A DNA stretch of 64,000 bases from Desulfomicrobium baculatum DSM 4028. Lineage in GTDB: Bacteria; Desulfobacterota; Desulfovibrionia; Desulfovibrionales; Desulfomicrobiaceae. Shown here in pieces: positions 50,076 through 53,019 of the stretch; position 1 is the stretch's first letter; the number at the start of each line of letters is the position of its first letter. The notes beneath the pieces are model-generated. The model searched no databases and was not told the origin of the DNA. It worked only from the letters and a program-made list of their open reading frames with translations. The position numbers and the translations under genes are program-made. The DNA lies in NCBI RefSeq assembly GCF_000023225.1, contig NC_013173.1:746501-810500 (forward strand), in the 5' to 3' direction.

Positions 50076-50474
50076 ATGAATAGCCAAAAGTGGTTTTTCA
50101 GAACTCAGGTGTGTTGGCCGATTCTGGTCGCCTATCTCTTCCTCGCGCTCATTCCTTCCAACGCCGATGCCTTCCTGGCGCAAAGCCGCCTGTCTTCGGG
50201 CGAGATCATTTCCGAGCGAAGCGCCGATATCGCTTCCATCCAGACCGCTCTGGAGAATAAGGTCGTGACCCAGCGACTGGCGGATTACGGATTGACCCCG
50301 GATGAGGTGAACGCGAAACTCGGTTCGCTTTCCGATGAGCAGCTGCACCAGCTGGCCAGCCTGTCAGGTGACGTGGGCGGCGGTATTGTCGGTGCGGTCG
50401 TCGCGGTGCTGGTGGTCATTTTGCTGGTGGTCCTCATTCTGCACTTCAGCGGTAAGCGCATTGTCGTCAACTAG
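50076..50474 (+). CDS. PA2779-family small membrane protein
   Basis: A 132-residue protein at ATG 50076 with TATGGAGG ten bases before. It has a signal-type helix (about 8-31), a short middle domain with the TALENKVVTQRLADYGLTPDEV helices, and a C-terminal helix with GGGIVGAVVAVLVVILLV. This matches the PA2779 (DUF6627) family, found next to PA2778-type cysteine peptidases, as here. Function unknown. Confidence 0.82.
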   Translation: MNSQKWFFRTQVCWPILVAYLFLALIPSNADAFLAQSRLSSGEIISERSADIASIQTALENKVVTQRLADYGLTPDEVNAKLGSLSDEQLHQLASLSGDVGGGIVGAVVAVLVVILLVVLILHFSGKRIVVN

Positions 50475-51006
50475 GCAGCGTTGTCTGCTGGGACTGATGG
50501 CGGTGCTTGTGATGGTGGGGTGCGTGCAGCGCCCCGCTTTTCAGCCGGATCGGGAAATAACCGCCCGCACGGTGCGCCTGGAAGTGCCCTTTATCCCCCA
50601 GACCCAAAACAACGACTGCGGTCCGTCAGCCTTGGCCGCCGTGCTGGCGTTCCATGGCCGGGACGTGTCCCTGGATGAGGTGACGCGACGCGTCTTCACC
50701 CCGGTGCTGGAGCGGACGCTGCTTCCGGACATGGAGAACTACGCCAGGTCGCTGGGCTTCTCGACCCGCTCCGGTCGCGGGGATCCGGTCCTGCTCCGGG
50801 ACTGGATCAACGCAGGCAATCCCGTTATCCTTATGCTCAACATGGGCGGAAGGATGTTCAGCCAAGGCCATTACGTGGTGGTGTATGGTCATGATCCGGA
50901 CGGATTCCTGATGCATATCGGGACCAGAGCGGAGATGTACCTGCCGGACCAGGCGCTGCTTGAGGGCTGGGAGCCCATGAACCGTCTTTACCTTGTCGTG
51001 GAGTGA
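50461..51006 (+). CDS. PA2778-type C39-like cysteine peptidase, lipoprotein
   Basis: The frame is open from 50335, but the likely start is TTG 50461, giving a lipoprotein signal with VMVGC around residue 21 and 181 residues. It overlaps the PA2779 stop by 14 bases. The fold has NDCGPSALAAVLAFHG with the active Cys, and GHYVVVYGHDPDGFLMHIG with His and Asp. In PA2778 proteins I recall that a TPR part is fused; here it is a separate gene. It probably acts on PA2779 or another envelope substrate. Confidence 0.78.
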   Translation: MSSTRQRCLLGLMAVLVMVGCVQRPAFQPDREITARTVRLEVPFIPQTQNNDCGPSALAAVLAFHGRDVSLDEVTRRVFTPVLERTLLPDMENYARSLGFSTRSGRGDPVLLRDWINAGNPVILMLNMGGRMFSQGHYVVVYGHDPDGFLMHIGTRAEMYLPDQALLEGWEPMNRLYLVVE

Positions 51007-51009
51007 ACC

Positions 51010-51570
51010 GTGCGTCGTGCATTCTTTCTTGTCTTCTTTTTGGTCCTTGCGCTGGCCGGTTGCGCCACGCCCAGGATCGTCGTGCTTTCCGACCCGCTGG
51101 ACGCCCGCGAACACAACGATCTGGGTGCCTCTTACGAGACCTCCGGAGAACTGGACCTGGCCCTCAAAGCCTATGAAACGGCCGCGGCCAAGGATCGTTC
51201 CTGGGACCAGCCGCTTATCAATCTGGGTAACGTGCATTCGGCCCAGGCTGATTGGACGCAGGCTGCGGCCAGTTACCGGCAGGCCCTGAAACGCAATCCC
51301 GAAAACTCCGAGGCCATGAATAATCTGGCTTATGCGCTCGTGAACCTGGATGAGCCGCGCGAGGCCCTGGAATGGTCCTCCAAGGCAGTGCAGGCCGAGC
51401 CCGGCAACCCGCTCTTCCGGGCGACCCTGGCCCAGGCCTTGGCGGGAACCGGCGAGAGGGAGAAGGCGCTCGCGCTCCTTGACGAAACCCTGCAAACCCT
51501 TCCTTCCGATGATCCCCTGCGTGAGAAGATAGCCGCTCTGCGCGACCAGATCGAAAACTCCGCCCCCTGA
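51010..51570 (+). CDS. TPR lipoprotein
   Basis: From GTG 51010, three bases after the peptidase stop. It has a signal peptide with lipobox LAGC (residue 18) and four TPR-like repeats (HNDLGASYETSGELDLALKA onward) filling the rest of the 186 residues. It is probably the split-off TPR half of the peptidase gene. A bidirectional terminator follows. Confidence 0.85.
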   Translation: MRRAFFLVFFLVLALAGCATPRIVVLSDPLDAREHNDLGASYETSGELDLALKAYETAAAKDRSWDQPLINLGNVHSAQADWTQAAASYRQALKRNPENSEAMNNLAYALVNLDEPREALEWSSKAVQAEPGNPLFRATLAQALAGTGEREKALALLDETLQTLPSDDPLREKIAALRDQIENSAP

Positions 51571-51625
51571 GGCTGCGTCATGGGCGTTGCTGCCTGTGCC
51601 GGGCTGTATCTTTGATGGTTATACG

Positions 51626-51668
51626 AAAACGCCGCCTTCCATTTGCAAAGAGAAGGCGGCGTTTTCTC
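51626..51668. terminator. Bidirectional intrinsic terminator
   Basis: A 13-base stem (AAAACGCCGCCTT 51626-51638 with AAGGCGGCGTTTT 51653-51665) serves the PA2779 trio on the plus strand and the channel gene on the minus strand. Confidence 0.9.
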
Positions 51669-51689: not shown

Positions 51690-52226
51690 CTAGAATGGCA
51701 GCTTGCCAAATCCGATGAGGTCATACGCGGGTACGAGCAGGCCGAGGAATGAAAGAACAATAAGGAGTGCGCCCAATACCTTGGGTGACAGTTTTCCATA
51801 CGTCACGGCCCAGACCGCGACCGTCAGCACCACAAAGGCAATCATCATGCAGCCAAGGTAAAGACTCTTGCCGATGAATGACGTTCCGTCGGGCTTGATG
51901 CCCCCGCCGGTGAAGTAAAAATACGCGGCGATGGCCAAAATGAATGCCATCATCAAGCTCAGGTTGCCCAGAGAGCGCAGGTCTTCGATTCCGTTCAGCA
52001 TGCAGTACGAGATTGTAAGATACACAATGCCGAAGGGAATCAGCAATGTCGCCGTAAAAGCGTCGCTCCCAAACAGAGGCGTTGCATGAATTATCCCGCC
52101 GATACACGTTATTATGCCCACGAACCCGGCAATCGCGCCGCAGGTTTTTGCATCCCCTTGGCCAAAGTAAAAGAGTCCGATCGGAAACCACAACATGGCA
52201 ATTGTCACAAGCAGTACCAAAGTCAT
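51690..52226 (-). CDS. AmiS/UreI-type urea or amide channel
   Basis: The 178-residue protein starts at 52226 with CGGAGG eight bases upstream and has six membrane helices with the family start MTLVLLVTIAMLWFPIGLFY. AmiS/UreI proteins let urea or short amides through the inner membrane. No urease or amidase gene is adjacent, which is unusual for the family. It lies next to an AT-rich region that may have come by transfer. Confidence 0.82.
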   Translation of the reverse strand: MTLVLLVTIAMLWFPIGLFYFGQGDAKTCGAIAGFVGIITCIGGIIHATPLFGSDAFTATLLIPFGIVYLTISYCMLNGIEDLRSLGNLSLMMAFILAIAAYFYFTGGGIKPDGTSFIGKSLYLGCMMIAFVVLTVAVWAVTYGKLSPKVLGALLIVLSFLGLLVPAYDLIGFGKLPF

Positions 52227-53019
52227 TACTTTTTCCTCCGTCTGAGATAAATTTCTCCAATCAAGACATGCTTGAAATTGAAAAAACATGAAAACGGCCT
52301 GATCATCGCAAGAGTGTAGTAGCCCTCCTTGTTGATTTTGAAGTAAAAACCTATAATGAGTAGAATAATGCTAACATGCCATTACTATTCAATTAAATGG
52401 ATTGAGCCAAAGAAGTCACCAATGAGCATGTCTGATTATGGTACTCTGAAACATAATCAAAGCTCATATTGAGCAAAATTGAGACCATAAAAAATAATAT
52501 TGCATCATATTGTGTGAATTTAAATAATATTAATGTGTAATAAGTGTGCGAATATGAAATTTTTTTGAATTTAACCAGTATTGATAAGAACTTAGTAGAT
52601 GGAAAATATGTTTAAAATAATGAGGAATTATTTAATTATCGGTGCCGGTGCTTAGGATAATAGGTATAGTGATGGGTCATAATGTCTCGCGGGCGTGTCA
52701 TTATTATACAAGGAGTATGAATTGTGAATCGCCCCAAATTTTTTGGGACGTTGGAGCGTGCACCTTGGTGATGGCATCCACGGGCAGGTTGTCCTTTACT
52801 CGTTGGGGCATGATCCTTTGGATTTTGCCCTTTGAACCTGATTGGAAAATTTCAGCGCAGGAAAAGCGAAAAACAGAGTGTGTCTAATGTGCCTCAAATT
52901 GATTGAGCACGTTATAAATGCGCCCCGCGCCCTGGCTTTCCCGAGGACGGGGGGCAGGACGCGGGACGTTTTGCAGGGATGGCGAATCAGTTTTGCGCGC
53001 TGCTGATCAGGCGCGGCGA
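52227..53019. other. AT-rich intergenic region
   Basis: From 52290 to about 52660 the base content is very AT-rich, unlike the surrounding 60% GC. No gene is supported. A short hairpin CCCAAA/TTTGGG lies at 52733-52747. An open frame at 52708-52887 has a ribosome site one base from its ATG, so it is doubtful. The region leads into a GNAT remnant. Confidence 0.5.

Follow-up and report, generated by a model that had tools for sequence, protein, structure and literature searches.

Peptide exporters are known to carry double-glycine peptidases as cytosolic domains, and the hydrophobic positions of known double-glycine leaders are -4, -7, -12 and -15. A class of stand-alone C39 enzymes that work in the periplasm was still called uncharacterised in 2017. 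It is represented by FapD of the Pseudomonas Fap amyloid system, a periplasmic enzyme that has no ABC transporter and needs its active-site Cys; GG and GA motifs have been discussed as its cut sites, and its target is unproven (PMC5557850). The PA2779 family (NF033919, DUF6627) and the PA2778 family (NF033920, a model of a fused peptidase-TPR protein) are already catalogued. A literature search for PA2779/PA2778 returned passing mentions only and no functional study. In P. aeruginosa, PA2779 and PA2780 (bswR) are divergently oriented (PMC3985676), and in P. stutzeri a PA2779-family gene belongs to a set of 39 whose transcripts rank in the top 3% under four conditions (PMC10155442).

The window, a stretch of 64,000 nucleotides from Desulfomicrobium baculatum DSM 4028, carries both families in one unit of three genes, all at the coordinates where a sequence-only reading had placed them. 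Peptidase and PA2779 each occur once in the genome. The unit and the hairpin that closes it are as follows.

50076..50474, + strand: small exported protein of the PA2779 family (NF033919/DUF6627), 132 aa, the proposed substrate (NF033919 82.7 bits, PF20332 29.2 bits)
50461..51006, + strand: C39 cysteine peptidase lipoprotein, the peptidase half of PA2778 (TTG start, 181 aa, PF03412, NF033920)
51010..51570, + strand: TPR lipoprotein, the TPR half of PA2778 (GTG start, NF033920, TPR_2)
51625..51666, + strand: terminator-like hairpin closing the unit (-27.1 kcal/mol, z -4.25)

The PA2779 gene begins with an ATG that is preceded by GGAGG at 8 bases. The peptidase TTG lies within it, giving a 14-bp overlap, and a TTG in the same place, 14 bases short of the upstream gene's end, is seen in the genus relatives inspected (six sequences parsed including the window, two more by eye). 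The GTG of the TPR gene follows three bases past the peptidase TGA with GGAG ahead of it, and a hairpin with a 15-bp stem stands 3' of this gene. The tight packing described from the letters, with a TTG inside the previous gene and the TPR gene three bases later, is therefore what the coordinates give. Chance reading frames or a wrong start are ruled out by the family scores and the conserved TTG. Across 60 loci no neighbour beyond the trio is conserved, which rules out a larger operon with a hidden fourth gene. An AmiS/UreI-family transporter gene (51690-52289, - strand) faces the trio from the far side of the hairpin, in convergent orientation.

The assignment to the PA2779 and PA2778 families was likewise borne out. 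The small protein passes the curated NF033919 cut-off of 40 bits, the peptidase scores 48 bits against PF03412 (cut-off 22), and an NF033920-type gene adjoins the PA2779-family gene. NF033920 is matched in two halves, by the peptidase at positions 4-143 (76.9 bits) and by the TPR protein at positions 165-255 (41.6 bits), so that neither alone reaches the cut-off of 150 bits. The TPR protein also matches TPR_2 at 66 bits, and its lipobox Cys18 is invariant in 41 relatives, in agreement with a separate TPR lipoprotein. Fusion of peptidase and TPR parts, stated beforehand for Pseudomonas, is found in the sampled Pseudomonadota and in one part of Desulfobacterota; the fused-type model NF033920 is matched in 57 of 232 Gammaproteobacteria genomes, in 56 of them above the cut-off. 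Two further fused pairs occur on plasmids of Azoarcus and Eleftheria. Most Desulfobacterota have a separate TPR gene. When fused and split forms were compared on a tree of the peptidase domain, the label changed about 4 times as against about 50 in shuffles, on an unrooted FastTree tree of 153 rows and few columns in which many forks are unresolved. The split form is the prevailing state in Desulfobacterota, and fused proteins of the Pseudomonas type make up a deep group of their own. The TPR part is thus a gene of its own as had been proposed, and the idea that it departs from a Pseudomonas norm gives way to a deep division.

The trio arrangement recurs in dozens of families, well above chance, and this wide distribution rules out a local oddity of one genus. 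Among 394 Desulfobacterota genomes, PA2779 was found in 101 and the peptidase, counted at 120 bits or more, in 100, with both in 97 (Fisher p 4e-83, genomes counted without correction for ancestry). Seven genomes are discordant. Four have PA2779 only, of which one is cut by a contig end (G108), one is broken (G365), one lies on a 5.6-kb contig (G332) and one is real (G258); three have the peptidase only, and two of these begin at a contig end. In the 232 Gammaproteobacteria genomes, PA2779 was found in 60 and the peptidase in 57, and all 57 of the latter have PA2779. A failure of the genes to co-occur, which had been named beforehand as an outcome that would speak against the sequence-only reading, was thus not observed. 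Four genomes (G105, G303, G374, G396) hold PA2779 and a complete peptidase on different contigs, clear of contig ends, and have kept both. No PA2779 is found at thirteen loci with more distantly related C39 proteins (about 50-77 bits), and these can be ruled out as the same system. The retention of unlinked pairs and the absence of PA2779 from these distant loci indicate a link that is confined to this group of peptidases and goes beyond operon hitchhiking alone. No viral relatives of the peptidase were confirmed among viral contigs.

The gene order is PA2779-peptidase-TPR nearly everywhere. The order peptidase-TPR-PA2779 was seen in one genome, which has two copies of the unit; the peptidase gene is broken in one (L059, G092:C7) and intact in the other (L066). 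Tandem PA2779 pairs stand before a single peptidase at a few loci (L029/L040 in G049, L076 in G308, and L137), and a second PA2779 paralogue with the tail PAGGN... and no adjoining peptidase is present in Pseudomonas (L153, L156, L157, L158). One of these Pseudomonas genomes (G421) also has a second, TPR-less peptidase elsewhere (L243). Two further loci, L107 and L108 (G078:C64 and G182:C77), place a diverged PA2779-like protein near a second, TPR-less peptidase, and this combination is possibly a sub-system of its own.

The peptidase is a stand-alone protein with no ABC transporter fused to it, and the following residues can be assigned.

50521..50523, + strand: lipobox Cys21 (recognised lipobox in 128 of 152 relatives)
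50599..50601, + strand: Gln47, oxyanion residue (145 of 153)
50617..50619, + strand: Cys53, catalytic nucleophile (153 of 153)
50869..50871, + strand: His137, catalytic (153 of 153)

Loss of the His in relatives had been named as a point against the sequence-only reading; with Cys and His both invariant in the 153 sequences, a dead or His-less peptidase is ruled out. The position aligned to the triad Asp of ComA is Ser in 113, Thr in 15 and Asp in 4 of the 153 sequences, and Ile in the window, which suggests that catalysis probably relies on a Cys-His pair. Across the domain the pLDDT of the predicted model is about 89-98, and the best Foldseek matches of this model are the peptidases of ComA, LahT150 with bound leader peptide (6mpz) and PCAT1 (TM to target 0.82-0.85; rmsd 1.7 for 6mpz). 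The sequence profile result agrees with these double-glycine peptidase matches. Relatives lacking a recognised lipobox mostly show one by eye or have a plain Sec signal (about ten are plain Sec). By the E. coli rule, a lipobox Cys that is not followed by Asp directs a lipoprotein to the outer membrane; the next residue is never Asp in the relatives, and an outer membrane placement of the peptidase is predicted on this basis.

The small protein had been described as a signal or anchor protein. It carries a candidate processing site where the periplasmic helices give way to the C-terminal membrane helix, as laid out below.

50076..50171, + strand: Sec signal peptide, predicted cut after Ala32 (ADA|F; Ala in 98% of 176 sequences)
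50334..50372, + strand: leader-like amphipathic helix before Gly-Gly (helix 87-99 in models; bulky hydrophobics at -5, -8, -12 and -15)
50376..50381, + strand: Gly101-Gly102, with the proposed cut after Gly102 (154 of 176 sequences have G-[G/A/S])
50385..50450, + strand: C-terminal membrane helix, residues 104-125 (predicted helix, hydrophobic in all relatives)

In 176 unique sequences, the three most conserved positions of PA2779 are a core Gly, the Ala of the signal peptidase site and the first Gly of the pair. Gly occupies P2 in 95% and Gly, Ala or Ser occupies P1 in 93% (n=176), which corresponds to the P2-P1 pattern seen in double-glycine processing. GT, GQ, GE or GK takes the place of this pair in a minority of the sequences. 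The predicted helix with its hydrophobics terminates right before Gly-Gly, and the -5/-8 spacing is one off from the canonical -4/-7. PA2779 modelled alone gives a poor fold prediction. The part before the pair is conserved, whereas the tail after it varies freely and conserves mainly its hydrophobicity. The diverged copies at L107 and L108 keep GG despite a membrane helix that starts about ten residues later, which argues against a mere hinge at the membrane edge. The one real genome with PA2779 only (G258; L098, 4992-6129) has an intact PA2779-like gene and a TPR gene, with no peptidase between them or elsewhere, and has GN in place of the GG of its relatives. This is a single event, in the direction expected if PA2779 is the substrate. 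A search of ten genomes found no other protein with a GG-membrane tail; further substrates of this kind were set aside on that count, and the substrate looks dedicated. Several genomes have more PA2779 copies than peptidases, which counts for PA2779 as the substrate, and the very high transcript level of a family member in P. stutzeri is easier to reconcile with an abundant substrate than with a protein that regulates the protease.

A model can be proposed that draws directly on the gene order, the catalytic residues, the predicted fold, the co-occurrence and the conservation of Gly-Gly. In this model the peptidase cuts PA2779 after Gly-Gly within a self-contained periplasmic processing module, a reading to which we give a probability of roughly 0.55. 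Sec would export PA2779, whose C-terminal helix would keep it in the inner membrane while a small helical domain projects into the periplasm. The C39 lipoprotein, predicted to lie in the outer membrane and to face the periplasm, would bind the amphipathic helix ahead of Gly-Gly and cut after the pair with its Cys-His pair and Gln oxyanion residue. A domain of about 70 residues ending in ...GG would be set free and a membrane stub of about 30 residues would stay behind. The TPR part, a protein of its own here but joined to the peptidase in Pseudomonas, probably keeps the substrate or a client next to the active enzyme. We infer the cut at Gly-Gly and its products, the membrane placements, the TPR role and any use of the released domain from these features taken together. 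The dedicated envelope processing system suggested by the sequence-only reading is retained as a unit; the small protein is probably the substrate of the peptidase, more than an anchor, and this likely role with its predicted Gly-Gly cut site is what the present analysis adds. If PA2779 is the substrate, the periplasmic class gains a protease-substrate pair whose cut site is predicted exactly and which is widespread, occurring in roughly one in four of the species sampled from Desulfobacterota and Gammaproteobacteria. Two families that lack an assigned function would become one testable reaction, and a role would be given to a protein whose gene ranks among the most transcribed in P. stutzeri.

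The main rival casts PA2779 as a partner, adaptor or inhibitor, with some other envelope protein as the true substrate. PA2779 might recruit the peptidase and the TPR part to the inner membrane, or it might sit in the active site, as staphostatin sits in that of staphopain. A partner would be expected to show co-transcription and co-occurrence too, and the ten genomes gave no second GG-tail protein that would reveal a substrate class. The weaker fold matches of the peptidase include staphopain-staphostatin complexes, and Gly at P1 can serve inhibition too. However, the peptidase is already anchored by a lipid, the pair varies as Gly / Gly-Ala-Ser in the manner of a cleavage site and is not a single fixed residue, and the high P. 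stutzeri transcription and extra unlinked copies suit a substrate better. A partner role is accordingly considered unlikely, though it deserves to be kept in mind.

Two other readings keep PA2779 as the protein that is cut and differ in what becomes of the products. Sortases, exosortases and rhombosortase recognise signals made of a motif, a membrane helix and a short basic tail, and the layout of PA2779 matches them. Since a Cys enzyme goes through a thioester, the new C-terminus left by a cut after GG might be passed to an amine (of a lipid, peptidoglycan or protein) in place of water, and PA2779 would remain attached in the envelope. This would be a new kind of C-terminal sorting system, in which a papain-fold C39 lipoprotein acts on an abundant small protein and another fold does the job of sortase, exosortase and rhombosortase. 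Such transfer appears improbable, as the 60 loci show no conserved acceptor or partner gene in the vicinity, a single substrate family was found in the ten genomes, and related double-glycine peptidases hydrolyse. Least probable is a bacteriocin-like role in which the hydrophobic tail of about 30 residues is the released active peptide. The leader, GG and short peptide do follow the layout of class II bacteriocins and come with a C39 enzyme, but it is the part before GG that is conserved and the part after it that varies freely, no exporter or immunity gene recurs in the 60 loci, and the tail comes after a Sec-exported domain.

Cleavage of PA2779 by the C39 lipoprotein can be set beside several known systems. 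FapD is the closest characterised analogue; as described, it too is a Sec-exported stand-alone C39 enzyme, the signal peptide here having a lipobox. FapD differs in acting in Fap secretion, and its description includes neither a TPR part nor a PA2779 partner. FapD is encoded with fapA-F, and in the 60 loci compared here no gene beyond the trio recurs as a neighbour. ComA, PCAT1 and LahT150 share the fold, the Gln-Cys-His residues and a GG/GA site after an amphipathic helix. In contrast to them, the enzyme here is a periplasmic lipoprotein with no transporter and without the triad Asp, and its proposed substrate is anchored by a membrane helix after GG. The GlyGly-CTERM/rhombosortase system resembles this one in having a motif at the periplasmic face, a membrane helix and a short basic tail; unlike in that system or sortase, the linked protease here is a papain-fold C39 enzyme with one substrate family in ten genomes. 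The PA2779 and PA2778 families are the very proteins found here, in the same PA2779-then-PA2778 order as in Pseudomonas, Azoarcus and Eleftheria, whereas the peptidase and TPR halves joined in PA2778 of Pseudomonas are two lipoproteins in D. baculatum.
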